Assembly: GCF_949628265.1 (NCBI RefSeq) | Contig: NC_088789.1 | Location: 4,642,886 to 4,706,885, forward strand | Reading direction: 5' to 3' | Length of the DNA stretch: 64,000 nucleotides | DNA from: Cloeon dipterum | Lineage: Eukaryota; Arthropoda; Insecta; Ephemeroptera; Baetidae | Shown: piece after piece, positions 4,279-48,200 of the stretch | How the letters are laid out: each line of letters starts with the position of its first letter | How positions within the stretch are numbered: the first letter of the stretch is position 1 | Position numbers and translations under genes: made by a program | The notes under the pieces: model-generated | What the model was told of the DNA's origin: nothing | The model's input: only the letters and a program-made list of their open reading frames with translations | Database searches by the model: none

Positions 4279-5843
4279 ATGAGAGTTGCGGCGAGTGTTC
4301 TGCTCTTTGTGCTCTTCACCGGTGCTTGCGCCAGGGTCGCCAGGTGCGTTCACCCATTCTATTTGCAACCCGAGTCAACCTTGCTTTTGTTCTTTGACTC
4401 CTCTGCTGAGAGTCTTAATTAATTTACTAACATAAACAGACTCCAACTAAGGCTTCACATTTTAAGTAAAATACCACGGCATCTTTTTTAATTAAGTGTT
4501 TCACCTTGAAAAGTAAAAGATGCTTAGATTTTTACCATCAAGGTCGAGTTTGAAAGCTGCAAGCAGGTTATTTTCAGTAATTACACATTGCAATCGCTAT
4601 AATTTTTTCAGTACAAATTTTGCAACCGACAGAAACTTTCTACCTGCTATTCTTCCAAATAAAAAATAGCGTAAAAATCGGCAAGCAAGTGAAAGCATTA
4701 TCGCCTTTAGCGTTTGCTCCACATTCCCATCTCCCGCCGAGTCTGATTATCGGTGCATTTTTACGCAACTCTTGCAGACGCGGCGGCCGTTTCATCCATG
4801 GTGGGCGCGCGGTGGTCGTAGAAGCGGCCACGGAGCCCGTGGTGCACGCCGAGGGGCCGCACTGGCTGGCCCCTTACCTCTACTACGTCGACATCAGCAG
4901 CAGCGCCCTCCTGCGGCTGGACACGAGCTCAGGGAACGTCTCGCGGTGGACGGTGCCTCCCGGAAACGAGCCCGTCACCCTGGCGGTGCCCCTGAACGGC
5001 ACCGAGGGTGGAATTTTGATCAGCAGGGGACGCGAACTGCTCGAGTTCAACACCAAAACGGGGGAGGTGGGCACCAGTTTCGGTTTTGCGGACGTTGGCA
5101 GGCCGGGAAACCGATTCAATGATGGCAAGGCCGACCCTGCCGGAAGGTTGTGGGCAGGTAATTCTTTTTTCTTAAATAATATGTATATTTAGAAAGTTGT
5201 CTGTGCCATTTATGTAGGAACGATGGGGCCCGAGGAGCCAGGCACGGGAGTGGTTCCCGATCAAGGCAGCTTGTACCTTTTGGAAATTGGTGGTTTGACT
5301 TCCAAAGTTTCGGGAATTGACGTGAGCAATGGTCTCGCATGGAATTCTGCTCAAGATCTCATGTACTATGTCGACACTGGCACCGGCAGAGTTGACGTTT
5401 TTGATTTTAACCTCACAACAGCCGCAATAGGTATTCTTTTTTTAAATTTCAATGTCTCTTCACTCTAGCAAAAAAATTAATCCACAGATAACCGCAGGAC
5501 TGTGATTGATTTCGGCGCACAAAATGTGTCATGCACCCCAGACGGCATGGCCATCGACGCAGATGACTTCCTCTGGGTGGCCTGCTGGAGTGGTTGGCAG
5601 GTAGTCAGGGTCGACCCTGTGCGAGGCCAGGTGGTCGGCCAGGTTTCCCTGCCTGTGCAGTACGTGACGTCGGTTGCCTGGGGCGGCGACAATTACACTG
5701 ATCTCTACGTGACCTCTTCAAAGAGGGACCTCAGCCCCGAAGAGCAACAGCAACAACCGTTGGCTGGCAGTGTTTTCAAGGTCACTGGACTAGGGGTCAC
5801 TGGGCTGCCTGGCCAATCTGTGATACGGCCAACTCAAGAGTGA
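4279..5843 (+). CDS. Secreted SMP-30/regucalcin-like gluconolactonase-family protein
   Basis: Four exons, 4279-4343, 4778-5157, 5218-5430 and 5488-5843, give a 337-residue protein. Exon 1 encodes a signal peptide of about 18 residues ending GACA, then a short basic linker. The rest is a six-bladed propeller of the SMP-30/gluconolactonase/LRE family. Residues matching the family's divalent-metal site are present: Glu47 in AEGPHW, the Asn of VSNGLAW and the Asp in the TPDGMAIDA stretch. The substrate-loop motif RFNDGKADPAGR is also intact. Relatives hydrolyse sugar lactones or bind calcium. In insects, relatives include firefly luciferin-regenerating enzyme and fat-body anterior protein. Vertebrate regucalcin is cytosolic, so the signal peptide implies a secreted or luminal form. 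Exon 1 and exon 2 are separated by a 434 bp intron; later introns are 57-60 bp. The exact substrate cannot be inferred. Confidence 0.92.
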
Positions 5844-23511: not shown

Positions 23512-24059
23512 TTTATGGAAAATAATGCTATAACCTTCACAACAGCCAAAGTCACATATATCTTTATCATTATCAAATAAATACAATAATCATTTCAGCA
23601 ATATAGTATTCTTCAGTATTCTTGAAGATATTATTTAACAGAGACCACTAGAAATAGGTCTCTAATCTAATCTAAAGAGATTGTGCTTTTTGCCAAAAAA
23701 AAACAGGAATAAAAACATGGGAAAGTCACATATAGATTTTATAGCTAGAGTAGCAAAATCAACCTGCCTCTATCTCAGACTTTTATATGACTTTCAAGAG
23801 AAAATACAAATAACGCTCATAAAGTCATTATGCATCACCATCCTGACAATTTTCAATCACAGGGAATCATTAGCATAAAAAGTTCATTCACAACACATGA
23901 CTTACGATCCGCTTTTATCAGGGAGCGGATAGCGCTACACCAGCCAATGATATCTTTAAATGTCATATCTTACTTTTTATATACATATTTTTCTCTAGAA
24001 TATTGCAACACTCGGGCAGCATCTATAAGCAGTATCTTGCGAACTCGGGGACCGACACG
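23512..24059 (+). other. 5' flank of COE-1, related to the flanks of COE-2 and COE-3
   Basis: This flank aligns by eye with 28008-28962 and 32926-33880. Shared blocks include CCTTCACAACAGCC, the TTTCAGCAATATAG block and the stretch leading to CACCAGCCAATGA. It is about 400 bp shorter than the flanks of the other two copies; the missing part corresponds to about 28190-28590. The last 40 bases before the ATG are also shared. COE-1 lacks the TATATATA box found upstream of COE-2 and COE-3; a different TATA-like run (TTTATATACA) lies near 23973. Confidence 0.7.
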
Positions 24060-26507
24060 ATGGGTACCGTGTTTTATCTTGCCACTTTATTCGCTCTCCT
24101 GGGCCTGTCTGGGTTAGCTTTCAGCTCAGCCATTCAGGTCGAGGTTGAGCAGGGTGTCCTGCAGGGTGCAGTGCAGACGAGTCACTCAGGAAAACCTTTT
24201 TTGGCTTTTCACGCAATTCCGTATGCTGCACCTCCAATTGGACCACTCCGATTCAAGGTGACCTTTCAATCGATTTTCGCTTGGTGCATGATAATATTTC
24301 CACTTAATGCAATTGCACTATTTCGAAATTAATGAAACAATGGTTTTTTATTTAAGATAAAAATTATCCTCTCTGCCTCCACTCTTTACCAGGTTTTTCT
24401 CGGAAACATTAAGGCCGATCATTTTTTTATTTCACTCATTACACTTGAATGAAAAAAGGCCTGCATTTTTCAATTTCTTATATACCGAAATATATTTTTT
24501 AGGATCCCGCGGAGACAAAACGTTGGGAAGGTGTACGCGATGCCACAAAAAAGGGCCCAGTCTGCATCCAGAGAGACGTTTTATTTTCTCATAGTGACGA
24601 AATCTTTGGACAGGAAGACTGCCTGTACCTAGACGTATACACACCGAATGTGCGCAACATGCTATAAATGTATCTGTACTCGTGACATTGTTATAACATT
24701 GGCTTTGAGTAGGTGTTGCGGAAAGGGGAAAACATAACCGGTTCATTGCCGGTGCTTGTTTACTTCCACGGCGGAGGATGGCTGTGTGGCTCAGCAGGCA
24801 CCTATGGACCCGACTACCTAATGGACCAGGACATCGTCTTGGTCACGCCGAATTACAGATTGGGGGTGTTTGGTACTTCGCCCGCTCAAGTTTTCCTGAC
24901 GTCCTGTTCTCATTGGTCACGTAGGCTTTTTAAGCACTGAGGACAAGACGTGCCCCGGAAACTTTGGCATGAAGGATCAGGTGGCCGCTCTGAAATGGGT
25001 CCAAAAGAATATTGGTGCTTTTGGGGGTGATGCAGGAATGGTCACGATCGCCGGGCAAAGCGCTGGAGGAGCAAGCGTTCACTATCACATGATCTCTCCA
25101 TTATCACAGGGTGCGCTACGATTTTACCTGTTGATTTAATGATCAAATTGTATTTCTTATCTTTCGCCTAGGTTTGTTTTCACGCGCCATATCTATGAGT
25201 GGTACAGTTTTCTCTCCGTGGGCTTTCGCACCGAATCCTGTATCTAACGCAAGAAAATACGCAATGGTTAATGGATGCTCTATTGATGATTCAGAAGAAT
25301 TAGTCGATTGCTTGATGAAAAAGGAGGCTTATGATTTGATCGATACACAGGACGTGTTATATGTAGTTAAAGAAGCGATCAAATGCAATTTTGTATTCAT
25401 TCGTAATGTATCTCTAGGACTGGGGAATGGATCCTATCCTGCCATTCCGTCCTTGCCAAGAGCCTCAACACGACGGGTTAATTTTCCTGCCTGCGGCGCG
25501 AGAAAAGCTGGTTGAGCGAATTGAATCATTGAGTCCATTTAACTCGATCCCGTGGATTGTTGGATACACTTCACATGATGGAGCGATTAGAACATCTTGT
25601 TAGTTTTAATCTTTTAAAAACTCTATTTGTTAAAGCTTATTCGCAAAACATTACAGCATTTTCGAGCTCTGCTCCAATAATGGAAGAAATTGACGCTAAT
25701 TTTGCCACCCTTGCACCGTTGATCCTGAATTATACTTCTGACCAGGGAGCATACTTGGCAGGTGTAATTAGACAGATTTATTTTGGTGGAATTAAAATCA
25801 ACAAAGAGAGCAAGGATATCTTTACTAAGGTAACACTAATCATATTGGGAGCAGCGTTGGTAAAATTAAAGATGTTTAGATGTACACTGAAAGGATGTTT
25901 GTGCACCCGATAATTAACTCTCTGAAAATTATGAGGAGCTACAGCACAGTCAGGCCGATATATATTTATCAATTCGGCTACAGGGGTAAACATTCGATGT
26001 CGTTAAAATGGGACCCTTTTTCGAATACTGATTATGGTAATTTTATGTAATTTTCTGAATGATTAATACATTTTTTTATCTTCAGGAGTTGCCCACATGG
26101 ATGAATTACAGTACATTTTCCCTGCTCCGAAATATTTTCCAACAATTCCTAAAAATGAAAACAGTGAGGACGCACGAGTTATGAAATTTATGACCAAACT
26201 GATTTCTGATTTCGGGAAAACTGGGTAATTAACAATTTTAAAACTTGATTTTAAATTACCTAATTTGATTTTTAGTTTACCGACACCTTCTAAAGATTCA
26301 TCAGAAGAGGGGGACTTAAAGTGGCACGCAATAAACAAAATATTCCCGCTTGAGGTCGCAAATCTCGACTCGTCGATGCCAACTGGCTATATAAAGCCAA
26401 CGGATTATTTTGAGAAGCCGTACAGATTTTGGCAATCGTTGAACCTGCAAGAGGATGGGTGGACCAAACAAGAAGATGTTTTCGTATCCAACCATGACGA
26501 ATTTTAA
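24060..26507 (+). CDS. Carboxylesterase COE-1 (alpha/beta hydrolase, GQSAG, HDEF tail)
   Basis: Ten exons join in frame: 24060-24257, 24503-24649, 24713-24872, 24925-25110, 25172-25362, 25418-25598, 25657-25829, 25880-26036, 26086-26224 and 26276-26507. They give 587 residues, normal for the type-B carboxylesterase family, which hydrolyses carboxylic esters. Exon 1 encodes a signal peptide and the RFK block. Exon 2 holds EDCLYLDVY, exon 3 the oxyanion-hole HGGGW, exon 4 the nucleophile elbow GQSAGG, exon 6 the acid-loop TSHDG (Asp in place of the usual Glu) and exon 9 the His motif [12 protein letters not shown]. Triad residues are therefore all present. The C-terminus is HDEF, a variant of the HDEL ER-retention signal, so an ER-lumen location is likely but possibly leaky. 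GQSAG is unusual: relatives COE-3 and COE-4 have GESAG. Exon 2 uses a weak GTGCGC donor. Exons 3-10 are identical to COE-2. Substrate unknown. Confidence 0.93.
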
Positions 26508-26937
26508 AATTGCATACAACACGCTGTAGCTCTAAAAGTTATTTCAATTGCATTTTGTATCAAATACGATAAAATGAGCTTTAAATTATGTTACTGTCAT
26601 TGTGTCATATTATGCTTACATCTGTTTAGAATTAAAACAAATAGACCTGAAAATTTGCATTATGTATTATTTCTGTTACAGTGAGCCTTTTTATGATTTT
26701 TCGCAATCTTGCAATTTAAAAAAAAATTCAGTAATCTTTGAAATTAATAACCTTGCAGATTGCCAAGAAAATTTCGACACTGGTGTACACCACCTGACAT
26801 CTTGACCTACCGTAATCGACCAGGAGATCAGCTTGCGTTGCATAACAACGCCATTTATTTATAATGTTAATCGTGTTCTCTTCTCGCGACTGATTTCCTA
26901 CGCTGTTTAGTATATCTTTTGCGCCAGCGTCAATATG

Positions 26938-27995
26938 ACGGCTGTCGCACTTAATTTTCTCTCTTTACTTGCCTTACTCAATGCACCACAGTCGGTTGCA
27001 AGTTGTTGTCGAGCAGGGTATTCTTCAGGGCACAGAAACGCGTAGCCACTCAGGAAACCCAATTTTCTTATTTCAAGGCATCCCGTACGCAGTTCCTCGT
27101 GTTAAGAAGCTCAACGCTCTCACACTGATGGCTGTCGCACTTTCCATTCTGCCTTCCCAACACTGCTATCTACCGAAGAAATGTGACTTGAGCTGTTTTG
27201 AGAATATTGTCACATGGTTTTAGAAGAAGGTAATCTAAGTAAATCACTTAAATAGTAGCATTTGGAATAAATTATTTATCAATTCCATTAATTTAACAGG
27301 CCATTTTGAATTTTATTTCTATTCCAAAAACTCAAAAGATGCTCTTTAAATTTTTATCTGCTTCATCGTAAACCATATTTGGACACCGGAATTTTGAAGC
27401 AGTTTCCCTATTTTCAGTTAAGTAATAAGTTTGAATTACACTCTGTAGACTAAAATAAAAGATCAAAATTATATAGAAGCAATTAGCTTTTGTAAAAATT
27501 AAAAACATAAATTTTAATTGTTTCACAATAATTTCAGTAAAGCAAAAAGACAAAAAAACGGCTTTATTTCTTGTGCAGATAACTGTGGTATTATGGCAAA
27601 GCAGATAAAACCCTTAACCTGGTTGAGCAGCTGGAGAGGAATTTCCAAGAGATGAAAGCGCACCAAACAAGAATTAGCTGGTCCACATGTTCGTTGCAAT
27701 GATGCGCTCCCTGGGCTTGAAGACTAGACTTATCATTTCTCTGCAGCCATTGTCGTTGAAACCAAGCAGCCACGATCTGTTGGCGGTGAATGCAAAACCA
27801 GAAGAAAGCAAGAGTAGCAACGAGGTGGACAAGAAAACTGATAAGACGGCCAAGGAGTCAAACAAGAAGAAGGAAAAGAGAACCCGCCAAAGAAGACAAC
27901 TAAAGTTGCTCCAAAAAGTCAACTGTGCAGCAAAAGAGTGGAAAATCATCTGCAAAACCAATAAGCGAGAGAAAAAGGGGATGGAGAGCAAATAC
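26938..27995 (+). pseudogene. Chimeric pseudogene: COE-4-like exon 1 fused to XPC exon 1-2 fragments (copy 1)
   Basis: The segment starts like COE-4 exon 1, from the ATG near 26938 through the HSGNPIF and FQGIPYA blocks. A 14-base deletion after the signal peptide breaks the frame. At about 27105 it switches abruptly to XPC exon 1 (KKLNxxTLMAVALSILPSQ), which ends in a premature stop in place of the Lys codon of the WFKKK block. An intron remnant follows, and then XPC exon 2 material (about 27590-27995) with frameshifts. XPC homology ends near 27995, where the flank of the next esterase copy begins. Flanking sequence from about 26640 also matches the COE-4 5' flank at about 36470. Several lesions make a functional protein unlikely. 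Confidence 0.88.
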
Positions 27996-28922
27996 TTATC
28001 TTTACTATATGGAAGACAATACTAATAACCTTCACAACAGCCTTTATCTTTATCATCCTCTCATTAAATACAATTACCATTTCAGCAATATAGTATTCTT
28101 GAAGTTATTATTTAACTGAGATCACTCGAAATAAATGTCGCAGAGATTATAATTTCTGCCATAAAGATTACAGAAATAAAAATGCCGGCCAAAATTCCTT
28201 AGTTGAAATGTTTAATCAAATTATAACTCGATGTCGAATTGCGTATTGTTTTGCTTTATGAAAATCAACTTATAGGGAATGAATGAAAACTTTTTTTAAA
28301 CAACTCCTTAAGGTGTGTACAACAGACGAAATAAAAAAGACAATATATTATCAACAATTTCACTGCTCGTTTTTTGCATGGAGCACATAACATTACATTT
28401 CAACCCTCTTCCCTAAAAATGTAATAAAAGGTACCAAGGTAATATTTAATAGCAGTGATTGCCTCATACTTATTGTCATCATTTTACAACTTTATTGTGC
28501 ACCATAAAATGATGAGACGCTGATTGTTCGGTTCAGATTTCTAGGTATGCGGAAACTCTTTGAAGCGGGTGGCAATATACACTGAGGCTATAGACGACAC
28601 GTGGAAACGGGAAAAACGCAGATAGATTTTATAGAGTAGCAGGATCAACATGCCTCTACTAACTCAGGCTTTTACATAACTTTCAAGAGAAGATATAAAT
28701 AATAAAAATAAAGCTCATAAAGTAGACAATTCAATAATGTTCTTCTCCATCCTGGCAATTTTCAATCACAGGGAAGCATTAGCATATAACATTCATTCAC
28801 AACATGACGCATGACACTTACGATGCGCTTTTATCAGGGAGACGATGGAGCTACACCAGCCAATGATCTCTTTAATTGCCATTTCTTACTTGTCTCAAGT
28901 GTATATTGCACCACCAGTGCAG

Positions 28923-28930
28923 TATATATA
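28923..28930 (+). promoter_or_regulatory. TATATATA box upstream of COE-2 (same at 33841-33848 for COE-3)
   Basis: An 8-base TATATATA lies 40 bases before the COE-2 ATG and is identical before COE-3. If used, the 5' UTR would be only about 10 bases. COE-1 lacks it at this place. Confidence 0.3.
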
Positions 28931-28962
28931 TGCAGTCTCTTGCGAACTCGGGGACCGACACG

Positions 28963-31425
28963 ATGTGTACCGGGTTTTATCTTGCATCTTTATTCGCTCT
29001 CCTTGGCTTGTCTGAGTTAGCTTGCGGCTCAGCCATACAGGTTGAGGTTGAGCAGGGTGTCTTGCAGGGTGCAGTGCAGACGAGTCACTCAGGAAAACCT
29101 TTTTTGGCTTTTCACGCAATTCCGTATGCTGCACCTCCAATTGGACCACTCCGATTCAAGGTGACTTTTCAACCTACTATCAATTCAATTTTCGCTTGCT
29201 TGGTGCATGATAATCTTTCCACTTTATGCAATTGCATTATTTCTAAATTAATGAAACAATGGTTTTTTATTTAAGATAAAAATTATCATCTCTGCCTCCA
29301 CTCTTTACCAGGTTTTTCTCGGAAAAATTAAGACCGATCGTTTTTTTATTTCACTCATTAGATTTGAATGAAAGTAGACCTGCACTTTTTCATTTCTTTT
29401 ATACCGAAATATTTTTTTAGGATCCCTCGGAGACAAAACGTTGGGAAGGTGTACGCGATGCCACAAAAAAGGGCCCAGTCTGCATCCAGAGAGACGTTTT
29501 ATTTTCTCATAGTGACGAAATCTTTGGACAGGAAGACTGCCTGTACCTAGACGTATACACACCGAATGTGCGCAACATGCTATAAATGTATCTGTACTCG
29601 TGACATTGTTATAACATTGGCTTTGAGTAGGTGTTGCGGAAAGGGGAAAACATAACCGGTTCATTGCCGGTGCTTGTTTACTTCCACGGCGGAGGATGGC
29701 TGTGTGGCTCAGCAGGCACCTATGGACCCGACTACCTAATGGACCAGGACATCGTCTTGGTCACGCCGAATTACAGATTGGGGGTGTTTGGTACTTCGCC
29801 CGCTCAAGTTTTCCTGACGTCCTGTTCTCATTGGTCACGTAGGCTTTTTAAGCACTGAGGACAAGACGTGCCCCGGAAACTTTGGCATGAAGGATCAGGT
29901 GGCCGCTCTGAAATGGGTCCAAAAGAATATTGGTGCTTTTGGGGGTGATGCAGGAATGGTCACGATCGCCGGGCAAAGCGCTGGAGGAGCAAGCGTTCAC
30001 TATCACATGATCTCTCCATTATCACAGGGTGCGCTACGATTTTACCTGTTGATTTAATGATCAAATTGTATTTCTTATCTTTCGCCTAGGTTTGTTTTCA
30101 CGCGCCATATCTATGAGTGGTACAGTTTTCTCTCCGTGGGCTTTCGCACCGAATCCTGTATCTAACGCAAGAAAATACGCAATGGTTAATGGATGCTCTA
30201 TTGATGATTCAGAAGAATTAGTCGATTGCTTGATGAAAAAGGAGGCTTATGATTTGATCGATACACAGGACGTGTTATATGTAGTTAAAGAAGCGATCAA
30301 ATGCAATTTTGTATTCATTCGTAATGTATCTCTAGGACTGGGGAATGGATCCTATCCTGCCATTCCGTCCTTGCCAAGAGCCTCAACACGACGGGTTAAT
30401 TTTCCTGCCTGCGGCGCGAGAAAAGCTGGTTGAGCGAATTGAATCATTGAGTCCATTTAACTCGATCCCGTGGATTGTTGGATACACTTCACATGATGGA
30501 GCGATTAGAACATCTTGTTAGTTTTAATCTTTTAAAAACTCTATTTGTTAAAGCTTATTCGCAAAACATTACAGCATTTTCGAGCTCTGCTCCAATAATG
30601 GAAGAAATTGACGCTAATTTTGCCACCCTTGCACCGTTGATCCTGAATTATACTTCTGACCAGGGAGCATACTTGGCAGGTGTAATTAGACAGATTTATT
30701 TTGGTGGAATTAAAATCAACAAAGAGAGCAAGGATATCTTTACTAAGGTAACACTAATCATATTGGGAGCAGCGTTGGTAAAATTAAAGATGTTTAGATG
30801 TACACTGAAAGGATGTTTGTGCACCCGATAATTAACTCTCTGAAAATTATGAGGAGCTACAGCACAGTCAGGCCGATATATATTTATCAATTCGGCTACA
30901 GGGGTAAACATTCGATGTCGTTAAAATGGGACCCTTTTTCGAATACTGATTATGGTAATTTTATGTAATTTTCTGAATGATTAATACATTTTTTTATCTT
31001 CAGGAGTTGCCCACATGGATGAATTACAGTACATTTTCCCTGCTCCGAAATATTTTCCAACAATTCCTAAAAATGAAAACAGTGAGGACGCACGAGTTAT
31101 GAAATTTATGACCAAACTGATTTCTGATTTCGGGAAAACTGGGTAATTAACAATTTTAAAACTTGATTTTAAATTACCTAATTTGATTTTTAGTTTACCG
31201 ACACCTTCTAAAGATTCATCAGAAGAGGGGGACTTAAAGTGGCACGCAATAAACAAAATATTCCCGCTTGAGGTCGCAAATCTCGACTCGTCGATGCCAA
31301 CTGGCTATATAAAGCCAACGGATTATTTTGAGAAGCCGTACAGATTTTGGCAATCGTTGAACCTGCAAGAGGATGGGTGGACCAAACAAGAAGATGTTTT
31401 CGTATCCAACCATGACGAATTTTAA
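28963..31425 (+). CDS. Carboxylesterase COE-2, hybrid of COE-3 5' and COE-1 3' parts (GQSAG, HDEF)
   Basis: Ten exons: 28963-29160, 29421-29567, 29631-29790, 29843-30028, 30090-30280, 30336-30516, 30575-30747, 30798-30954, 31004-31142 and 31194-31425, giving 587 residues. Flank, exon 1 and exon 2 are identical to COE-3; exons 3-10 are identical to COE-1. The gene thus reads as a crossover hybrid with a COE-3-type promoter and signal peptide driving a COE-1-type catalytic body. Triad motifs ([20 protein letters not shown]), the HGGGW oxyanion block and the HDEF end are as in COE-1. The frame is fully open, so the hybrid should be functional. An upstream in-frame ATG at 28927 would add 12 residues; I prefer 28963 because the homologous position in COE-1 is the only in-frame start there. 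Confidence 0.92.
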
Positions 31426-31855
31426 AATTGCATACAACACGCTGTAGCTCTAAAAGTTATTTCAATTGCATTTTGTATCAAATACGATAAAATGAGCTTT
31501 AAATTATGTTACTGTCATTGTGTCATATTATGCTTACATCTGTTTAGAATTAAAACAAATAGACCTGAAAATTTGCATTATGTATTATTTCTGTTACAGT
31601 GAGCCTTTTTATGATTTTTCGCAATCTTGCAATTTAAAAAAAAATTCAGTAATCTTTGAAATTAATAACCTTGCAGATTGCCAAGAAAATTTCGACACTG
31701 GTGTACACCACCTGACATCTTGACCTACCGTAATCGACCAGGAGATCAGCTTGCGTTGCATAACAACGCCATTTATTTATAATGTTAATCGTGTTCTCTT
31801 CTCGCGACTGATTTCCTACGCTGTTTAGTATATCTTTTGCGCCAGCGTCAATATG

Positions 31856-32913
31856 ACGGCTGTCGCACTTAATTTTCTCTCTTTACTTGCCTTACTCAAT
31901 GCACCACAGTCGGTTGCAAGTTGTTGTCGAGCAGGGTATTCTTCAGGGCACAGAAACGCGTAGCCACTCAGGAAACCCAATTTTCTTATTTCAAGGCATC
32001 CCGTACGCAGTTCCTCGTGTTAAGAAGCTCAACGCTCTCACACTGATGGCTGTCGCACTTTCCATTCTGCCTTCCCAACACTGCTATCTACCGAAGAAAT
32101 GTGACTTGAGCTGTTTTGAGAATATTGTCACATGGTTTTAGAAGAAGGTAATCTAAGTAAATCACTTAAATAGTAGCATTTGGAATAAATTATTTATCAA
32201 TTCCATTAATTTAACAGGCCATTTTGAATTTTATTTCTATTCCAAAAACTCAAAAGATGCTCTTTAAATTTTTATCTGCTTCATCGTAAACCATATTTGG
32301 ACACCGGAATTTTGAAGCAGTTTCCCTATTTTCAGTTAAGTAATAAGTTTGAATTACACTCTGTAGACTAAAATAAAAGATCAAAATTATATAGAAGCAA
32401 TTAGCTTTTGTAAAAATTAAAAACATAAATTTTAATTGTTTCACAATAATTTCAGTAAAGCAAAAAGACAAAAAAACGGCTTTATTTCTTGTGCAGATAA
32501 CTGTGGTATTATGGCAAAGCAGATAAAACCCTTAACCTGGTTGAGCAGCTGGAGAGGAATTTCCAAGAGATGAAAGCGCACCAAACAAGAATTAGCTGGT
32601 CCACATGTTCGTTGCAATGATGCGCTCCCTGGGCTTGAAGACTAGACTTATCATTTCTCTGCAGCCATTGTCGTTGAAACCAAGCAGCCACGATCTGTTG
32701 GCGGTGAATGCAAAACCAGAAGAAAGCAAGAGTAGCAACGAGGTGGACAAGAAAACTGATAAGACGGCCAAGGAGTCAAACAAGAAGAAGGAAAAGAGAA
32801 CCCGCCAAAGAAGACAACTAAAGTTGCTCCAAAAAGTCAACTGTGCAGCAAAAGAGTGGAAAATCATCTGCAAAACCAATAAGCGAGAGAAAAAGGGGAT
32901 GGAGAGCAAATAC
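31856..32913 (+). pseudogene. Chimeric pseudogene: COE-4-like exon 1 fused to XPC fragments (copy 2)
   Basis: Same structure and same lesions as the copy at 26938-27995, shifted by exactly 4918 bases: COE-4-like exon 1 with the 14-base deletion, abrupt switch to XPC exon 1, premature stop, intron remnant and frameshifted XPC exon 2 piece. Identity to the first copy shows it was carried along in the recent 4.9 kb duplication and did not arise separately. Confidence 0.88.
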
Positions 32914-33880
32914 TTATCTTTACTATATGGAAGACAATACTAATAACCTTCACAACAGCCTTTATCTTTATCATCCTCTCATTAAATACAATTACCATTT
33001 CAGCAATATAGTATTCTTGAAGTTATTATTTAACTGAGATCACTCGAAATAAATGTCGCAGAGATTATAATTTCTGCCATAAAGATTACAGAAATAAAAA
33101 TGCCGGCCAAAATTCCTTAGTTGAAATGTTTAATCAAATTATAACTCGATGTCGAATTGCGTATTGTTTTGCTTTATGAAAATCAACTTATAGGGAATGA
33201 ATGAAAACTTTTTTTAAACAACTCCTTAAGGTGTGTACAACAGACGAAATAAAAAAGACAATATATTATCAACAATTTCACTGCTCGTTTTTTGCATGGA
33301 GCACATAACATTACATTTCAACCCTCTTCCCTAAAAATGTAATAAAAGGTACCAAGGTAATATTTAATAGCAGTGATTGCCTCATACTTATTGTCATCAT
33401 TTTACAACTTTATTGTGCACCATAAAATGATGAGACGCTGATTGTTCGGTTCAGATTTCTAGGTATGCGGAAACTCTTTGAAGCGGGTGGCAATATACAC
33501 TGAGGCTATAGACGACACGTGGAAACGGGAAAAACGCAGATAGATTTTATAGAGTAGCAGGATCAACATGCCTCTACTAACTCAGGCTTTTACATAACTT
33601 TCAAGAGAAGATATAAATAATAAAAATAAAGCTCATAAAGTAGACAATTCAATAATGTTCTTCTCCATCCTGGCAATTTTCAATCACAGGGAAGCATTAG
33701 CATATAACATTCATTCACAACATGACGCATGACACTTACGATGCGCTTTTATCAGGGAGACGATGGAGCTACACCAGCCAATGATCTCTTTAATTGCCAT
33801 TTCTTACTTGTCTCAAGTGTATATTGCACCACCAGTGCAGTATATATATGCAGTCTCTTGCGAACTCGGGGACCGACACG

Positions 33881-36341
33881 ATGTGTACCGGGTTTTATCT
33901 TGCATCTTTATTCGCTCTCCTTGGCTTGTCTGAGTTAGCTTGCGGCTCAGCCATACAGGTTGAGGTTGAGCAGGGTGTCTTGCAGGGTGCAGTGCAGACG
34001 AGTCACTCAGGAAAACCTTTTTTGGCTTTTCACGCAATTCCGTATGCTGCACCTCCAATTGGACCACTCCGATTCAAGGTGACTTTTCAACCTACTATCA
34101 ATTCAATTTTCGCTTGCTTGGTGCATGATAATCTTTCCACTTTATGCAATTGCATTATTTCTAAATTAATGAAACAATGGTTTTTTATTTAAGATAAAAA
34201 TTATCATCTCTGCCTCCACTCTTTACCAGGTTTTTCTCGGAAAAATTAAGACCGATCGTTTTTTTATTTCACTCATTAGATTTGAATGAAAGTAGACCTG
34301 CACTTTTTCATTTCTTTTATACCGAAATATTTTTTTAGGATCCCTCGGAGACAAAACGTTGGGAAGGTGTACGCGATGCCACAAAAAAGGGCCCAGTCTG
34401 CATCCAGAGAGACGTTTTATTTTCTCATAGTGACGAAATCTTTGGACAGGAAGACTGCCTGTACCTAGACGTATACACACCGAATGTGCGCAACATGCTA
34501 TAAATGTATCTGTACTCGTGACATTGTTATAACATTGGCTTTGAGTAGGTGTTGCGGAAAGGGGAAAACATAACCGGTTCATTGCCGGTTCTTGTTTACT
34601 TCCACGGCGGAGGATGGCTGTGTGGCTCAGCAGGCACCTATGGACCCGACTACCTAATGGACCAGGACATCGTCTTGGTCACGCCGAATTACAGATTGGG
34701 GGTGTTTGGTACTTCGCCCGCTCAAGTTTTCCTGACGTCCTGTTCTCATTGGTCACGTAGGCTTTTTAAGCACTGAGGACAAGACGTGCCCTGGAAACTT
34801 TGGCATGAAGGATCAGGTGGCCGCTCTGAAATGGGTCCAAACGAATATTGGTGCTTTTGGGGGTGATGCAGGAATGGTCACAATCTCCGGAGAAAGTGCT
34901 GGAGGAGCAAGCGTCCACTATCACATGATCTCTCCATTATCACAGGGTGAGCTACGATTTTACTTTTTGAATTGATGGTAAAATTGTGTTTTTTATCATT
35001 CACCCAGGCTTGTTCACACGCGCAATTTCTATGAGTGGCACAGTTTTCGCCCCTTGGGCTTTCGCACCGAATCCTGTATCTAACGCAAGAAAATACGCGA
35101 TGGCTAATGGATGCACATTTGATAATTCAGAAGAATTAGTCGATTGCTTGATGAAGAAGGAGGCTTATGATTTGATCGATACACAGGACGTGTTATATGT
35201 AATTCTTAAAAGAATCAAATTTAATTTTGTATTCATTTGTAATGCATATTTAGGAGTGGGTAATAGATCCTATCCTGCCATTTCGTCCTTGTCAAGAGCC
35301 TCAACACGACGGATTAATTTTCCTGCCTGCCGCGCGAGAAAAGCTGATTGAGCGAATTGAAACATTGACTCCATTTAACTCGATCCCATGGATTGTTGGA
35401 TACACTTCACATGATGGAGCGATTCGAACAGCTTGTTAGTTTTAATCTGCTCCTTTTGTTAAAGCTTTTCTTATTCTAAATCATTTCAGCATTTTCTAGC
35501 TATGCCTCAATCATGCAAGATATTGACGCTAATTTCGCCACCCTTGGGCCTTTGACCCTGAATTATACTTCTGACCAGGGAGCATACTTGGCAGGGCGAA
35601 TTAGACAGTTTTACTTTGGCGGAAATAAAATTGACAAAGAGCACAAGGACATCATAACTAAGGTAACACTTTTAATAATGGGAGCAATGTTGATACAATT
35701 ATAGATATTTAGATGTACACTGAAAGGACGTTTTCGCTCCCGATTATTAACTCTCTGAAAATTATGAGGAGCTACAGCACAGTCAGGCCGATATATTTCT
35801 ATCAATTTGGCTACAGGGGTAAACATTCGATGTCGTCTAATTGGGACCCTTTCTCGGACACTGATTATGGTTAGTGAATGTAATTTTCTGAATCGATAAT
35901 ATATTTTTATATTTTAAGGAGTCGCCCACATGGATGATATACAGTACATTTTCCCTGCTCCGAAACATTTTCCAACAATTCCTAAAAATGAAAACAGTGA
36001 GGACGCTCGAGTTATGAAATTTATGACCAAACTGGTTTCTGATTTCGGGAAAACTGGGTAATTAACAATTTTAAAACTTGAGTTTAAATTACCTAATTTG
36101 ATTTTTTAGTTTACCGACACCTTCTAAAGACCCAGCAGAAGAGGGTGACTTTAAATGGCACGCAATAAATAAAGTATTCCCGCTCGAGATCGCGAATCTC
36201 GACTCGTCGATGCCAACCGGCTATATAAAATCAACGGAGGATATTGAGAAGTCGTACAGATTTTGGCAATCGTTGAATCTGCAAGAGGATGGGTGGACCA
36301 AAGAAGAAGATGTTTTCGTTTCCGACCATGACGAATTGTAA
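33881..36341 (+). CDS. Carboxylesterase COE-3 (GESAG, HDEL ER-retention tail)
   Basis: Ten exons: 33881-34078, 34339-34485, 34549-34708, 34761-34946, 35008-35198, 35254-35434, 35490-35662, 35713-35869, 35919-36057 and 36110-36341, giving 587 residues with the same phases as COE-1. It has the signal peptide, [14 protein letters not shown], the standard nucleophile elbow GESAGG, TSHDG and the His motif. It ends in a textbook HDEL, so the product should be retained in the ER lumen like vertebrate carboxylesterases. Exons 1-3 are nearly identical to COE-2; from exon 4 onward it diverges clearly from COE-1/2, with many third-position and some coding changes. It probably represents the older, less modified state of this subfamily. 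Substrate unknown; xenobiotic or lipid-ester hydrolysis is typical of the family. Confidence 0.93.
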
Positions 36342-36762
36342 AATTCCATGCATCACGCTGCAGCTCAAAAAGATATTTCAACTGTATTTTTAACAGATAG
36401 TTTTCGATAATAAGCTTTAAATAATATTACTATCGTTTTATTCTTTTTTCTTTTTAGATAAAAACAAAAAGACCTGAAAATTTGCATCATGCATTATTTC
36501 TGTTACAGTGAGCCTTTTTATGATTTTTCGCAATCTTGCACTTAAAACAAACGGTTTCTGTCATCTTTGAAATTTACAACCTTGCAGTTAGCCAAGAAAA
36601 TTACGACACTTGTGTACACCGCCTGACATCTTGACCTACCGCAATCGACAAGGAGATCAGCTTGCGTTGCATAACAACGTCATAATTTTTAATGTTAATC
36701 GTGTTCTCTTCTCGAGACTGATCCCCTACGCTATTCAGTATATCTTTTGCGCCAGCTTCAAT

Positions 36763-39104
<2,342 letters not shown>

Positions 39105-39462: not shown

Positions 39463-39860
39463 TGAAAACTCGCAAAACACGACCATGTGTCTGTTGTTGT
39501 TGAGAAAATGTGTGTTACGTAAGATGAGGCTCTGAATTGCCGCCTTTGATGTTTTTGTAGTTGTTATTTATCCCTGTCAAAAAGGTAAAACATGACAAAA
39601 ATATTACTTTAATTCTGCACTACGCTGACACTTATGAATCTTGTTTCCCTCTCTTAAAGCATCTCATAACGATATCGTTAATAGAAGTGAAATGTGTGCA
39701 AATACTTATACAAACTTACATGAATCACAGTGACAGCAGGGAGAGTGAAGTGTTCTCACTCTCGCATTCCACATAATTATTGTTTTATGAGGGACAAGAA
39801 AAAGATAATTTCAGTCATTTGATTATTGATTAAGTAAATGTTGTCATGTTTTAGATCAAA

Positions 39861-42800
39861 ATGCCGAAGCGAAAGACCGCCCCAAAAGCAGATGTCGTAA
39901 ATGATGACAAGAAAAAACCTAAACTTGACAACTTTGCCGTAACCAGAAGACAGTCAACTCGTAGAAGCACAGCCAAAGCCCAGGAGTTGATCAAGAAGCA
40001 ATCCGCAGAACCAGATTCTGAGCATGAGTCGGTGTCGCAAAGCTCAGATGAAGATTTTGTCGTTCCTAAAAACGAAACGAAGTTGAATGGCTTTGGCAAG
40101 GCATGTGTCGTCCCGGCAATCAATAGTTTCCTCTCTTCAGATGACAGCTCTGAGGACGAAGAAAAGCCGGAAATCACAAAACGAAACAAGAAGCCTGCTA
40201 AAAAGGCTGCTACAGTGCCTGCCAAGAAGGCTGCTGCGGCGCCTGTCAAAAAGGATGCTGCGGCACCAGCTAAGAAGACTGCAGCAGCGCCTGCAAAGAA
40301 TTCGTCTCGAAGCGTGCTGAGCTCCGACTCTGAAAGTGAATTTGAGGATGTCGCTCCTGTAAAGCCAGAAGTGGTTCAAGTGCCAAAAATTTTGGCCGAA
40401 GTTTCTCAGCTAACTGACAGTGAGTCTGATTTGGAAGATGTACCAGCTCAGAATTTGTTTGAGCTGTTTCCAATGCTTAAAAAGCAAAACGAAGTGAAAG
40501 TTGAAGAGAAAAAGGTCAAGGCTAAAGTGGAGGAGAAAAAAATCGACTCTTCGACCTTGAATGTGTCCCAGCTGCTGGCGATGGGAGAGACCCAAGAGCC
40601 AGTTCCTTCAACAAGCAAATCTGAGCCCAAGGAGCGGAACAATCGCTCCAAATCTAAGAAAAAACAGAAGGGCGCTGACTCTGACGGGTCAGATTGGGAA
40701 GAAGTGGAGCATGGACAGGAGCAGAGCTTCCCCAAGGAAGGCGTCGAGGTGAACATCGAGACGGAGACCGGGCTCAAGAAGAAAAAGACTAAAAGCATGG
40801 ACCTGGAGGCAATCATCAAGAGGAGGATCAACCAGATTCGCAGGGAAAAGCAGGTGGAGCTGCATAAGGCCTCGCTGCTGTGCTGTCTCTGCCACGGAAT
40901 GTACATCAATAAGAAGCTCAACTCTCCCACACTGATGGCTGTCGCACTTTCCATTCTGCCTTCCCAACACTGCTATCCGCCGAAGAAATGTGACTTGAGC
41001 TATCTTGAGAAAATTGTCTCATGGTTCAAGAAAAAGGTAATATAATAAGTAAATCACTTAAATAGTAGCATTTTTAATTATTTAATCCAAAATTTCAACA
41101 AAATTGTATTTCTAGTCCCAAAACTCAAAAGCTGCTCTTTAATTTTAATCTGCTGCATCCTGAACCATTTTTGGACGGCAGGAGTTTCCCTATTTTCTGT
41201 TAAATAATCATAGTTTGAATTCAACGATGTGGATTAAGAGACTAAAATTAAAGATCAAAATTAAATAGTATCAAAAAATTGAACTTTGTTCAAATCAACT
41301 TCTTTCACAGTAATTTCATTACAGCAAAGTAGACAAAAAACCAAATAATAATTCTTTTGTGCAGATAACTGTGACTGATGGCAAAGAAGATAAAAACCTT
41401 AACCTGGTTGAGCAGCTGGAGAGGAGTTTCCAGGAGATGAAAGCACCAAACAAGAAGTTGCTGGTTCTCATGTTTGTTGCAATGATGCGCTCCCTGGGCT
41501 TGAAGACAAGACTCATTATTTCTCTGCAGCCATTGTCGTTGAAACCAAGCAGCCACGATCTGTTGGCGGTGAATGCAAAACCAGAAGAAAGCAAGAGTAA
41601 CAAGGAGGTGGACAAGAAAACTGATAAGACGACCAAGGAGTCACAAAAGAAGAAGGAAGAGAAACCGTCAAAGAAGACAACTAAAGCTGCTCCAAAAAAG
41701 TCGACTGTGGAGCAAAAGAGTGGGAAAGCAGCTGCAAAGCCAAAGCGGCAGAAAAAGGAGAAGGAAAGCAAATACTTCTCAGGGAAATCCGAATCAAGCC
41801 CTGATGTGGAGCAGAAACTCAAATCCCTGCGTAAGAGAAAGACAGAAAAATATGCAGAGGCATCTTCTGAATCTGATATTGAGACAACCAAGTCGAGCAA
41901 GTCAAAGAAGAAATCCAATGCTGCAAAGAAGGAGGAAACCAGCGATGAAGATGATTTCAAACCAGAAGTGCTGAAAATCAAGAAAAATTCCAAGATTTCT
42001 GTTGCTGACAGAAGAATCCTTTCCACTGATTCTGAAAGATCAAACTCTCCTCAAGTCTCTAAAAAAGGCAAGGTTGGAATTGATTACTGGGCTGAGGTCT
42101 TTGCTGAGATGGAGGAAAAGTGGATTTCGATTGACATAGTCAGCGGAAAGGTTCACTGTGTTGAACATCTTTATGTACGTTATTATTAGTAGGATATAGG
42201 AGCTCATTAATAAATTTATAAAATTTTGCAGTCAAAAGCGTCAACACCTGTGTTGTATGTGATGGGCCTTGACCAGACGGTGAGAGATCTGTCCCGCCGC
42301 TACTGTCCACAATACCACACCTCAACCAGGAAGCAGCGAGTTGACCAAGCCTGGTGGGAAGAGGCTATCAATCCCTTCTATGGGAAAAAATCAGCATTTG
42401 ACAAAGAGGAGGAGGAAGAAATGAACAAGCATCTGCAAGACCGACCAGTTCCCAAAACACTCTCAGAGTAAAATACAGTTTATTTATTATTTAAAAATTA
42501 TTATTCATATTATATTAACCACGTCAGGTTAAAAAGCCATCCTCTTTACTGCTTAAAGCGGCACCTTTTGAAGTATGAGGGAATTTACCCTCCGGATGCG
42601 CCTCCTCTGGGCTGGTTCAAGGATGAACCAATTTTCGCCAGAGAATGCGTGTTTGTCCTCAGATCCAGGGAAACTTGGTTGAAGGAGGCCAAGGTGGTTA
42701 AGCCCAAACAGGACCCTTACAAAATCGTCAAGTCGAGGCCCAAGTATGACAGGGTAAGAATTTAAAACTAGTCTTTTTTCAAATTATTTACTGGCTGTGC

Positions 42801-44177
42801 TTTACAAATCTTTTTGCAAAACGATATGGCGTTGTTGTTTTGACGCAATCACTACTTAGTAATGAAAGTTTTTTATTAGAGGTCGCAGCCAGCCGCGCCA
42901 GTCGCAGCCGGCAAGTTTTGGGTCATGAGGGCAGCCGCTGTGAATCTGGTTGAGCTGCGCCAGCCACTAAGCTGCTTGTGAAAAAGGGTCAATAATTAAA
43001 TAATGCAGGAGATAAAACGTCTTCTGGCCCTTCGGGCCGATAAGCACTATCAAACTTAATGTTTAAAATATTGTCAGCTGCGCTAGCTGTCCTCAAATCT
43101 CCTGGCTGAGACCTCTAATTTAACTCTCATTTTTCTTCTTTGCAAAACCTCATAACTTAATGAAACTAATTAATGTAGTTTGTTGTACGAATATATAAAA
43201 ATAACGCCAATTTCGCTGTGGTAATAAAAATTAATAATAACTAACTATTGTTTTAGACCAATATGCCACAATGTCATTCCTTCAGAATTATTGGCTTGCT
43301 GAATTTAAATTGTGTCATTGCCATCGCCACATTAACTATAGAACTCCTTTTGAATGTTTTTGTTTTTGCAGATGAGTGGTCAGATGGTTGATGGTCAGCC
43401 ACTAGAACTCTTTGGTCCTTGGCAAACTGACGATTATGTTCCCCCTACTGCAAAGGATGGCAAAGTTCCTCGCAACGAGTATGGAAACGTTGAGCTGTTC
43501 AAGCCCTGCATGCTTCCAAAAGGAACAGTTCATATTCCAAGTAAGGATGCTGCATTTTTGTTGGTTGGAATCCATTTTCTAATGGTAAACTGTCTCTCTT
43601 CAGTCAGCACGTTGAACAAGGTCGCCAAGAAACTTGACATCGATTGTGCACCTGCCATGGTTGGCTTTGATTTTCACTGTGGAGGTTGCCATCCAGTTTT
43701 CGATGGTTTCATTGTTTGTGAGGAGTACAAGGACACGCTTCTGGATGCACATCGCCAGGTTTGCGCATTTTATCAGATTAAAAATTGCATTTTAACCAAA
43801 AAAATGTGGTTTAAATAGTTTAAACAAATCAGAATCAAATTAATAAGTTCAACCTGTGATAATGCTAAGAAGGGAAAGAATTTTGTTAAATTTAGTCGTG
43901 TATTTTAAAGGATGAAGAGGAAAAAGCAAAACGAGGCGAGGAGAAGAGGCTGAAGCGGATCTACGGCAATTGGAAGAAACTGATCAATGGCTTGCTGATT
44001 AGAGAGAAAATCATGAAAAAGTACGATTTTGGTCAAGGCTCATCTGGTAAAGAGAAAGAGAAAGGGCCAAAAGAGGCCGGCGAGTCGTCTTCCAATTCCA
44101 AGGGGACTGCTCGCAAGCTGAAGCAGCCTGTGAAGAGGAAGAAGCAAGAAAGTGAAGACTCTTCTGATTCATCCTAA
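39861..44177 (+). CDS. Xpc: XPC (xeroderma pigmentosum group C / Rad4 family) DNA damage recognition protein
   Basis: Seven exons: 39861-41036, 41365-42174, 42232-42467, 42528-42753, 43372-43540, 43604-43758 and 43911-44177, giving 1012 residues. XPC with Rad23 and centrin detects helix-distorting lesions and starts global-genome nucleotide excision repair in the nucleus. Residues 1 to about 310 are disordered and charged, with Lys-Ala-Pro repeats near 112-146. The transglutaminase-like domain begins at about 316, is interrupted by a Lys-rich insert (about 456-630) and resumes at DYWAEVF. BHD1 follows (HPLYCLKRHLLKYEGIYP), then BHD2 (FGPWQTDDY) and BHD3 (KVPRNEYGNVELF and GFDFHCGG). The C-terminus has NWKKLINGLLIRE, matching the centrin-binding helix. 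Introns are short except a 618 bp one holding a MITE. The 63 bp intron 5 is open and in frame, so retention would insert 21 residues. An AATAAA is at 44405. Confidence 0.97.
42879..43115. mobile_element. MITE-like element in an XPC intron
   Basis: A 237 bp GC-richer block has terminal inverted repeats of about 14 bp with one mismatch (GAGGTCGCAGCCAG and GAGGTCTCAGCCAG). It is flanked by TA on both sides, as for TA-targeting DNA transposons. It encodes nothing and contains an internal GGCCCTTCGGGCC palindrome. It sits wholly inside the 618 bp intron between XPC exons 4 and 5 and explains much of that intron's excess length. Confidence 0.65.
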
Positions 44178-45261: not shown

Positions 45262-48200
45262 TTAAGCCATTGACAAAACGCCAGCGCCCATTCCGTAACC
45301 CACACCCTTGGGTCCATAGCGGCGGCCGTAGCAAGACTTGCAGTAAATATTTCCGTCAGGGCTGTCGTTCAGGGTGGTCGAGTCCAAAGAGCGGTTGCAG
45401 TCACCACAGGTGAAGCAGCGACGATGCCAAGTCTGTAAAATAAAAATTAGAGTTTAAAAAGCTGTGATGGTTTGAAGTGAGGAAGTGTGAAGTTTCACGA
45501 ATTCCTTTTCATGATTTATTTTTTTCCAAAAATCAAGCTACTGCGCTTTAGATAAACATTAAAAATACAAAGAGCTCACCTTGTTCTTGCTGATCATCTG
45601 TTCCGCTGCATAGACCATTTGACCACATCTAGGGCATCCTTGACCTTCAGGGGCCAAAGGTCCAATGTTCTGCTGGGGTCTGTGAAACAACGATTAGTTT
45701 TAATTTCCCGAGAAAAGATCCACACCATTATTGCATTTTTTGTTTTCTCTAATTTACTGAACCTCTGCTCACCGTGGGGCAGTGGTATTTTCACTGGAAC
45801 AGAACAGGGTGGGGGAGTGGCCATAGCCAAAGCCCTTGGGGCCGAAGTTCTTGCCGTAGCAGGCCTTGCAGTAGATCTCCTTGTCCGGGCCGTCGCAGGC
45901 CAGAACCGAGTCCAAGGGACGGTGGCACTGGCTGCAGTTGAAGCACTTCTTGTGCCACATCTGCAAATTTCGGCTGTGTCACTAACTAGTTTTTACGTAA
46001 AAAAAGGGAAAACTCACGGTGCCCTTGGCAAGTTGCTGCTCGGCAGCGTAGACCATGCCGCCGCAACGGGGGCAGCCCTGGCCCAGAGGAGCCTTGATCG
46101 AGGTTGTGTCCGGATTTGCGAACGGTCGCAGCTGAGAGATCTGCTGCTCGCTGCAGGATTTAAATTATTTTGTTGACGAGGACGTTACTTTCCAAGTTGA
46201 AATTAGCTTACTTCAAGCCATCGGTCTGCAAGAAGCCAGAGCCGCAGGCAAATCCGTAGCCGTGGGGGCCCCACTTCTTGCCATAGCAGGTCTTGCAGTA
46301 GACATCCTTGTCAGGGCCATCGCAAGCGAGGATCGAGTCCAGCGTCTTGGTGCAGTCGCGGCACTTGAAGCACTTACGGTGCCACATCTTTTGGGTCAAA
46401 TTTAGGTCTCAAATGAGTTCTTTTTTAAACACGTGACTCAGTAAAAGAACTGATTTTTTGCTATTTATTTTTCAAAGAAACGTAATCACAGAAAAATACT
46501 CACACTGCCCTTGGCGAGGACCTGCTCGGCGGCGAAGACTACGCCACCGCAGCGTGGGCAACCCTGTCCAGGGGGTGCCTTGATGCTCGTGGTGTCCACA
46601 AGGGTGGTCTTAGGAGCGACGGGCGCGTTGGAGCCATCCTCCAGCATCACGTCGCACTGCAGCGCACCAGCACCCTGGCCGTAGCCGTAGCCCTTGGGGC
46701 CAAACCTCTTGCCGTAGCAAACTGCCGAACGAGTTTATTAAAAAGTGCACTCTTTCCACTGCGCACCGGGAGGAAACTGCAGGACTGCGTGCATTGGCAA
46801 AAAATGACAAAAAGTGCGGTTCAGCTGTTTGACAAAAAGAGCTGAAAAGGCTGCACACGTAAGGGAACAACGAGACGTCCCAGTCGTCGGTTTCTGAGCG
46901 AAGAAAGTTGTCGGCACTAAATAATGGAAACATGCGAAGTGGCAGAAAAAAGTCGACATGCAAAAAACGAGAAAAGTTCATTGGAAGGACAATTTTGAAC
47001 CAGACAAGAATCTCTTTTTTAACTGCCTGACTGCATGTTTAAAAATGATGTGAAACCGATCGTGATTGTTTTGTTAATTTCGTAATGAAGATGATGTGAT
47101 AATTACCTTTACAGTAAATATCCTTGTCTGGTCCTTCGCAACAATTGACGGAGTCCAGGGTCTTGGTGCATGCGTTACACTTGAAACACTCCTTGTGCCA
47201 CGGCTTGAACAACCAGCAAACGGTTGGTCAGTAAGTCAGTCGACAAGAAAGAGTGTGTTCTTAATTATGTGCGTGTGTGCATTATGTTTGTGGAGAAAAT
47301 TAGGTTCAAGAAAAACGTCACCACGGAAAAAAAGGGGAAAATCTCATCCTCAGCACACACAGTATCGTTTTCAATTGTAGGTAGTCATTTTTAGCTTTTT
47401 GTATGTGCGGAGGATTTTCCTCGGTTTTGGTCTGAGGACTTCACCTTGTGATAAGGGTGGTGGCCTAAAGGTGTCTCTACCCTGTACCTCGTGCTTCTCC
47501 CGCATGGCTTGCAAAATGGTAGGCAACCACAGGAATGAGCCATCTGATTTAATATTTATTACACAACAAATTCTTTAAAAAAAATTAATGCAAAGTAAAG
47601 AAATTGTTTGACCAGCAACTACTTCAATTGAAATTAGAGAATTAGTTTCATATTTTAAAGAAACTCATTTTTTTTTGCAAAATTGCAGTGAATTATGTAG
47701 CGAGTCTTAAATTTACAAATAAGGAAAAAATAACACTTAGGTCAAGAAATTGTAGACATGGATTCAAAATGAAAATTAGTTCTGGCTTTGACATCATTGA
47801 CAACCTTCCAATAGTAATCTTCAAAAATAATTCAAATTGACCTGTCGATTTTGACGGCAAAGGCTTCTCATTCTGGTTCCTACGCATTAATTGGGGACTG
47901 CATCGAGGACAGTAAAAGGAATGCCAACCCTACGGGAGGATCGTGAGCGTGAATTACTATACAAATGTTTTTGCAAAAAATGTGGAGGAAAAATTTGGTT
48001 GTTTGAAAACAAAATTCAAAAAGAGTTTTGATTAGATAACAGATTTGAGGCTTACCCTTCCTCTGGCCAGCATCTGCTCGGCAGCGTAGACAATGCAGCC
48101 GCACCTGGGACAACCCTCGCCCTCAGGGGCCTTGATCTTGCCGGTCTTGACCACTCCGTTGGTGTGACCGTTCCTGCTAAAGGAATTTAAATGAGAGTAT

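Follow-up and report, generated by a model that had tools for sequence, protein, structure and literature searches.

Introduction

Gene multiplication by tandem exchange is common, and events of this kind are well known. Extra esterase copies are a known route to insecticide tolerance in insects. So are chimeric detoxification genes, as exemplified by CYP337B3 of Helicoverpa armigera: PMC6211633 describes a chimeric gene thought to have arisen by unequal crossing-over of two parental genes, argues for several independent events and shows that this P450 metabolizes fenvalerate. Sdic of Drosophila melanogaster is likewise a young, tandemly repeated family, for which PMC7475035 mentions gene conversion 30 times and unequal crossing over once.

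Here we describe a locus of carboxylesterase genes (COE-1 to COE-4) in a 64,000-nucleotide stretch of the Cloeon dipterum genome, hereafter the window. COE-2 shows two traits expected of a hybrid of the CYP337B3 type, a parent, hybrid, parent order and a single in-register switch within a stretch of high identity. Unlike CYP337B3, COE-2 is an esterase known here from sequence alone, and its mature protein is almost that of one parent. Sdic comprises other genes. No esterase hybrid of this make appeared in literature titles or in the opening lines of abstracts, a scope that does not prove absence.

Results

Gene models were spliced by hand and by homology. Each of the four predicted genes has ten exons, with every intron GT-AG and every frame open, and by these models the genes look intact:

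24060..26507, + strand: COE-1, 10 exons, 587 aa, C-terminus HDEF (spliced model, all GT-AG)
28963..31425, + strand: COE-2, hybrid with COE-3 promoter and exon 1 and COE-1 body, 587 aa, C-terminus HDEF (spliced model, three-way alignment, Pfam COesterase)
33881..36341, + strand: COE-3, 10 exons, 587 aa, C-terminus HDEL (spliced model)
36763..39104, + strand: COE-4, diverged neighbour, 10 exons, 591 aa, C-terminus RDEL (spliced model)

Introns are mostly short (49-63 bp), intron 1 excepted. COE-2, the only one of these proteins scanned against Pfam, matched COesterase (PF00135) over residues 25-531 (E 9.8e-135). Its residues 27-519 match the solved carboxylesterase 7mp4, and in this alignment the segments bearing the active-site serine and histidine correspond. 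The motifs FHGGGW (133), GQSAGG (212), SHDG (346) and HMDE (468) are kept at the catalytic triad and oxyanion hole positions. The COesterase domain, the GxSxG serine and the acidic SHDG, histidine and HGGG segments are shared with insect PF00135 carboxylesterases, for example 'Carboxylesterase-24' (7mp4) and E3 alpha-esterase-7 (4fng), presumably a blowfly protein. The residue preceding the catalytic serine differs: it is Q in COE-1 and COE-2, E in COE-3 and COE-4, and C in 7mp4. The C-terminal tetrapeptides of ER-retrieval type are a feature of the COE proteins here, and the likeness to 4fng and 7mp4 concerns the other segments alone.

A sequence-only reading of this DNA had reported that positions 24510-29670 recur unchanged at +4918. 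No mismatch was found, but the true end lies one base further: the maximal exact run covers 5162 bp (24510-29671 = 29428-34589) and is bounded by mismatches between 24509 and 29427 on the left and between 29672 and 34590 on the right. The run resolves into two units followed by a short common stretch:

24510..29427, + strand: 4918-bp unit, copy 1 (exact identity at +4918; the boundary slides within 244 bp)
29428..34345, + strand: 4918-bp unit, copy 2 (exact identity at -4918)
34346..34589, + strand: common 244-bp stretch at the right edge, inside COE-3 (same as 24510-24753 and 29428-29671)

Genome-wide, these are the only two copies of the unit among the best 74 of 134 candidates scored. The surrounding 264 kb are assembled contiguously without N, at about 40% GC, and hold no other repeat of at least 400 bp at megablast sensitivity. 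The genome assembly consists of five contigs of 33-43 Mb and five small ones. Runs of five TTAGG or five TCAGG units had 0 matches, a weak negative given that the DNA search passes over simple repeats.

To locate the switch in COE-2, homologous segments of COE-1, COE-2 and COE-3 were aligned over 3451 columns, of which 3016 are identical and 435 variable, gap columns counted. COE-2 agrees with COE-3 at 154 variable columns, the last at 24509, and with COE-1 at 281, the first at 24754; none of the 435 departs from a single switch. The switch is thus confined to 24510-24753, the longest run (244 bp) in which COE-1 and COE-3 are identical. At the equivalents of 24509 and 24754, 245 bp apart, COE-1 reads G...G and COE-3 T...T, and COE-2 alone combines T (29427) with G (29672); a reciprocal deletion product, starting as COE-1 and ending as COE-3, would be expected to read G...T.

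29428..29671, + strand: exchange interval of COE-2, covering exon 2, intron 2 and the start of exon 3 (flanked by the last site of COE-3 type, 29427, and the first of COE-1 type, 29672)

When the positions of the differences were shuffled 2000 times, the longest identical run reached at most 132 bp (mean 59), against 244 bp observed. The location of the switch inside this run is by itself modest support, since a randomly placed switch would fall there in about 7% of cases by length. COE-2 had been read as taking its promoter and exons 1 and 2 from COE-3 and exons 3-10 from COE-1. The promoter, exon 1 and COE-1 body hold. Exon 2 can be assigned by one base alone, its 7th (24509); beyond it, the three genes are identical through the rest of exon 2, all of intron 2 and 41 bases into exon 3. 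The COE-2 and COE-1 proteins differ at 7 of 587 residues. Because six of these lie in the first 22, COE-2 after predicted signal cleavage would be almost a second COE-1, placed behind the COE-3 promoter.

The 244-bp run lies within a longer tract of low divergence between the two parental genes:

24495..24990, + strand: homogenised tract in COE-1 (3/496 differences; equivalent to 34331-34826 in COE-3)
34331..34826, + strand: homogenised tract in COE-3 (counterpart of 24495-24990 in COE-1)

COE-1 and COE-3 differ at 3 of 496 positions in the tract, against 326 of 2849 outside it, introns included, where a further 104 columns are gaps. Coding dS is 0.023 in the tract and 0.21 after it. The earlier description of the two genes as strongly different both outside and within the rest of their bodies therefore applies everywhere except in this tract. 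Coding constraint is ruled out as the cause of the low divergence, given the dS values and the absence of differences in the 115 bp of introns 2 and 3, compared with 57/317 in introns 4-9. Since the 244-bp run sits in a tract of about 500 bp with so few differences, in introns too, the exchange site was probably made by earlier gene conversion, as judged from the alignment.

Between its esterase parts, the unit carries traces of other genes and a 475-bp upstream segment:

26935..27098, + strand: COE-4-type exon 1 remnant, copy 1 (homology up to 36940; a 14-bp deletion relative to COE-4 breaks the frame, the alignment bin at 26900 having 14 gap columns)
31853..32016, + strand: COE-4-type exon 1 remnant, copy 2 (offset 4918)
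27103..28000, + strand: fragment of the downstream XPC/Rad4-like gene (name inferred), copy 1 (82% identical to 40910-41780)
32021..32918, + strand: XPC/Rad4-like fragment, copy 2 (sequence match)
28134..28608, unstranded: 475-bp segment upstream of COE-2, without counterpart upstream of COE-1
33052..33526, unstranded: 475-bp segment upstream of COE-3 (same 475 bp as 28134-28608)

The broken COE-4-type exon 1 joined to the XPC-like fragment would be a relic of older rearrangements. Of three frames of the downstream XPC-like gene scanned against Pfam, only 43354-43818, a later exon, matched the Rad4 domain (PF10405); 39855-41045 and 41314-42189 had no match, nor did the one translated frame of the fragment (27678-28025). 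The 475-bp segment occurs at two places in the genome, 28134-28608 and 33052-33526, which were the two candidates scored (2/2). A mobile element as its source is unsupported, no genome copy outside the two units having been found at the sensitivity of the search. Rfam gave no match within the window at gathering thresholds.

The C-terminal tetrapeptides are HDEF in COE-1 and COE-2, HDEL in COE-3 and RDEL in COE-4; the N-terminal signal peptide is putative, by hydrophobicity only. In the cells of PMC7617889, HDEL is retained better than HDEF. By its tetrapeptide, the copied body (COE-1/COE-2) probably has a weaker ER-retrieval signal than COE-3, and these two enzymes may leak from the ER.

Discussion

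The gene order is COE-1, hybrid, COE-3, and the hybrid begins as the downstream parent and finishes as the upstream one. An origin of this order by one unequal crossover between COE-1 and COE-3, proposed in the sequence-only reading, is supported by the single switch with 0/435 misfits within the parents' longest identical run, because homologous unequal exchange predicts such a site. We consider it likely that the hybrid carboxylesterase gene COE-2 is real and arose by one homology-directed tandem duplication of this type, its reality in the animal resting on one assembly.

The same anatomy would be expected if the true locus were COE-1 followed by COE-3 and an assembler had walked twice through a loop at the common 244 bp, inserting one unit: precisely L-X-U-X-U-X-R would result, the copies showing no divergence and a hybrid lying at X. 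However, such an error is unlikely. The stretch that would have to collapse is identical over just 244 bp (some 500 bp if 99.4% identity is allowed), its surroundings diverge by 11%, and only short words would be confused by it; the 264 kb without N and the five contigs of 33-43 Mb suggest long reads. A duplication through replication-based template switching or break-induced replication, without reciprocal crossing-over, would leave an identical product that sequence cannot separate from crossing-over; we hold it to be very improbable, as ends in exact register in the longest identical run are explained equally simply by reciprocal exchange. That the three genes are all old and were made alike by subsequent conversion, without recent duplication, would be in keeping with the conversion that probably acted between COE-1 and COE-3 in the tract. 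Such tracts, however, must span all 4918 bp including the intergenic relic, end on both sides in the same 244 bp and leave zero residual difference, which is scarcely credible.

Under the favoured unequal exchange, an old duplication of a block [COE-A, COE-B, 5' part of an XPC-like gene] would have been followed by a deletion in the first block that brought exon 1 of COE-B up against the XPC-like gene, leaving COE-1. COE-1 and COE-3 would then have diverged (dS about 0.2), until gene conversion removed nearly all differences from about 500 bp within exons 2-4 and two introns. Exchange within this tract, between sister chromatids or homologues, would have added one 4918-bp unit. The product, if expressed as we infer, would combine the COE-1 enzyme body and its weakened HDEF end with the COE-3 promoter and signal peptide. 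The near-zero divergence had been taken to mean a very young event, one that may vary in copy number between individuals, or an assembly error; zero divergence fits a young age, but it bounds the age from above only, at about 0.1 million generations under the mutation rate that we assume.

A perfect repeat of 5 kb should now destabilise copy number, and alleles of 2, 3 and 4 genes in 4918-bp steps are predicted. It is conceivable, though doubtful, that a regulatory and sorting swap has been caught in the act here: the derived HDEF body would have been doubled, its copy taking over the promoter and signal peptide that serve the ER-retained paralogue, and conversion would earlier have built the recombination site, with copy number and secreted esterase dose varying among individuals in 4918-bp steps. 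The locus gathers block duplication, deletion, a conversion tract and exchange inside that tract in one place, and it would serve as a warning case if the duplication were an assembly loop. The two diagnostic sites allow copy-number variation to be tested by ordinary paired reads.

A single switch within COE-2

Self-comparison of the window showed that 24510-29671 recurs at 29428-34589, at an offset of 4918 bp and with 0 mismatches over 5162 bases. The sequence-only reading had placed this exact +4918 recurrence at 24510 to 29670, one base short of the measured run. Homologous segments of the three neighbouring carboxylesterase genes involved were aligned (COE-1 segment, 23719-27100; COE-2, 28609-32018; COE-3, 33527-36940), giving 435 variable columns among 3451 (gap columns counted). 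COE-2 matched COE-3 in 154 of them, none beyond 24509, and COE-1 in the other 281, none before 24754. This puts the switch at 24510-24753 on the COE-1 scale and at 29428-29671 on that of COE-2, an interval that takes in intron 2 with the greater part of exon 2 before it and 41 bases of exon 3 after it. No column (0/435) contradicted a single switch point, in agreement with the earlier proposal of one crossover in exons 2-3 of COE-1 and COE-3.

When COE-1 and COE-3 are compared without reference to COE-2, no identical run is longer than these same 244 bp (24510-24753); the next longest are 201 and 103 bp. When the COE-1/COE-3 difference positions were shuffled 2000 times, the longest run never exceeded 132 bp (mean 59). 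A random breakpoint over the homologous stretch would hit the 244-bp run about 7% of the time (244/3451), so the breakpoint position by itself carries modest weight. Stronger support for homology-directed exchange comes from the exact register and its 0 misfits. According to PMC6211633, CYP337B3 of Helicoverpa armigera is chimeric and thought to be the product of unequal crossing-over between its parental genes, in several independent events. COE-2 is a further case of such genes, set in an esterase cluster.

Age and origin of the duplication

The absence of differences in 5162 bp sets a 95% upper age bound of about 83,000-104,000 generations at 3.5-2.8e-9 mutations per base per generation, values for other insects. 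Two randomly drawn alleles would be free of differences with a computed probability of 0.006 if diversity were 0.1%, and of 2e-7 if it were 0.3%. Because this is so improbable, the exchange, if real, probably involved sister chromatids or homologues that were nearly identical, unless the copies have been homogenised since. An assembler that walked the loop twice via the shared 244 bp would give exactly the observed sequence. However, the 264 kb comprising the window and 100 kb on each side are contiguous and contain no N, which together with five contigs of 33-43 Mb suggests long reads, and such reads easily separate flanks that are 11% diverged. We thus regard an artefact as unlikely and a real exchange as the better account.

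At megablast sensitivity, self-comparison of the 264 kb gave five pairs of at least 300 bp, four of them belonging to the COE array and the gene downstream of it. One pair lies elsewhere:

L009:8402-8792 and L010:2995-3385, a direct repeat of 391 bp (99.7% identity) whose copies stand 4593 bp apart, to the left of the window at some 31 and 27 kb

Apart from remoter esterases and the sequence from which the XPC-like fragment derives, whole-genome searches listed parts of the 4918-bp unit only at this locus; only best candidates were scored (best 74 of 134 in one search), so that counts are lower bounds. When the unit itself served as query, its own positions were absent from the matches listed, so the copy count rests on the two other whole-genome searches. 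Among the matches listed, more carboxylesterase-like exon groups were seen (G000 C4 at 10.73, 23.19, 25.9 and 27.6 Mb; C3 at 6.17-6.32 Mb).

A probable earlier conversion tract

The 244-bp run sits inside a tract (24495-24990) where COE-1 and COE-3 differ by 3 substitutions in 496 aligned bases, vs 326/2849 outside (Fisher p 4e-20, an optimistic value, the limits having been set after the data were inspected). The tract has a synonymous divergence (dS) of 0.023, compared with 0.13 for exon 1 and 0.21 for the coding sequence past the tract. Introns 2 and 3 hold 0/115 differences and introns 4-9 57/317, although intron 9 taken singly has only 1/51. Because the tract's introns too are unchanged, selection on the protein is ruled out as the cause of the low divergence; we therefore infer from these patterns that gene conversion between COE-1 and COE-3 preceded the duplication. 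That the tract has three differences and the duplication none suggests that the conversion is older.

Products and regulation of the esterase genes

Ten exons with GT-AG introns and a product of 587 residues are common to COE-1, COE-2 and COE-3; the COE-4 product has 591. COE-2, the sole esterase scanned, matches PF00135 at residues 25-531 (E 9.8e-135), and its best solved-structure match is 7mp4 (E 8.9e-99). It keeps the FHGGGW, GQSAGG, SHDG and HMDE segments, which in this family form the oxyanion hole and triad, in agreement with the COE-2/7mp4 alignment. COE-2 differs from COE-3 at 52 residues and from COE-1 at 7/587 (2, 4, 9, 18, 21, 22, 69); a signal peptide cut near residue 23 would leave residue 69 as the only difference between the mature COE-1 and COE-2 proteins. 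COE-2 and COE-3 are identical over the 1001 bases preceding their start codons. The upstream kilobase of COE-1 aligns only in part (76.6% over the 371 bp adjoining the start codon, and further out 90.5% over 42 bp and 80.6% over 103 bp), and a 475-bp segment of the COE-2/COE-3 region has no match in it. "Hybrid" thus fits the gene, and its enzyme would be nearly a second COE-1 under COE-3's regulation.

The C-terminal tetrapeptide is HDEF in COE-1 and COE-2, HDEL in COE-3 and RDEL in COE-4. With COE-4 as sole outgroup, the ancestral final residue was probably L, and F a later change; at the residue before the active serine, E likewise probably preceded Q. In PMC7617889, HDEF reporters are retained more poorly than HDEL but better than HDEA, and HDEF binds the receptor slightly more weakly (23 vs 18 micromolar). 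By analogy with this poorer retention, we predict greater leakage from the ER for COE-1 and COE-2 than for COE-3, though the difference may be slight.

Older rearrangements and the downstream gene

Each unit copy carries joined remnants of older events, in the first copy:

26935-27098, COE-4-type exon 1 remnant, joined to the XPC-like fragment
27103-28000, XPC-like fragment, 82% identical to 40910-41780 of the downstream gene

Past the XPC-like fragment, 28008-28133 is homologous (76%) to 23514-23656 upstream of COE-1. The simplest history would begin with an old tandem duplication of a block whose end fell inside the XPC-like gene; about 4 kb of the first block would then have been deleted. 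The downstream gene is named XPC/Rad4-like because its open frame 43354-43818 matches PF10405 (Rad4 beta-hairpin domain 3); two earlier frames scanned gave no Pfam match and presumably belong to the same gene. It lies downstream of COE-4, at 39855-44177, its first frames having lysine/alanine-rich stretches.

Elsewhere in the window, short diverged direct repeats (74-84% identical; 45831-46389, 47109-47201, 48074-48137) occur within a 206-aa open frame and close to it, and an open frame at 4581-5192 resembles regucalcin/SMP-30 by eye.
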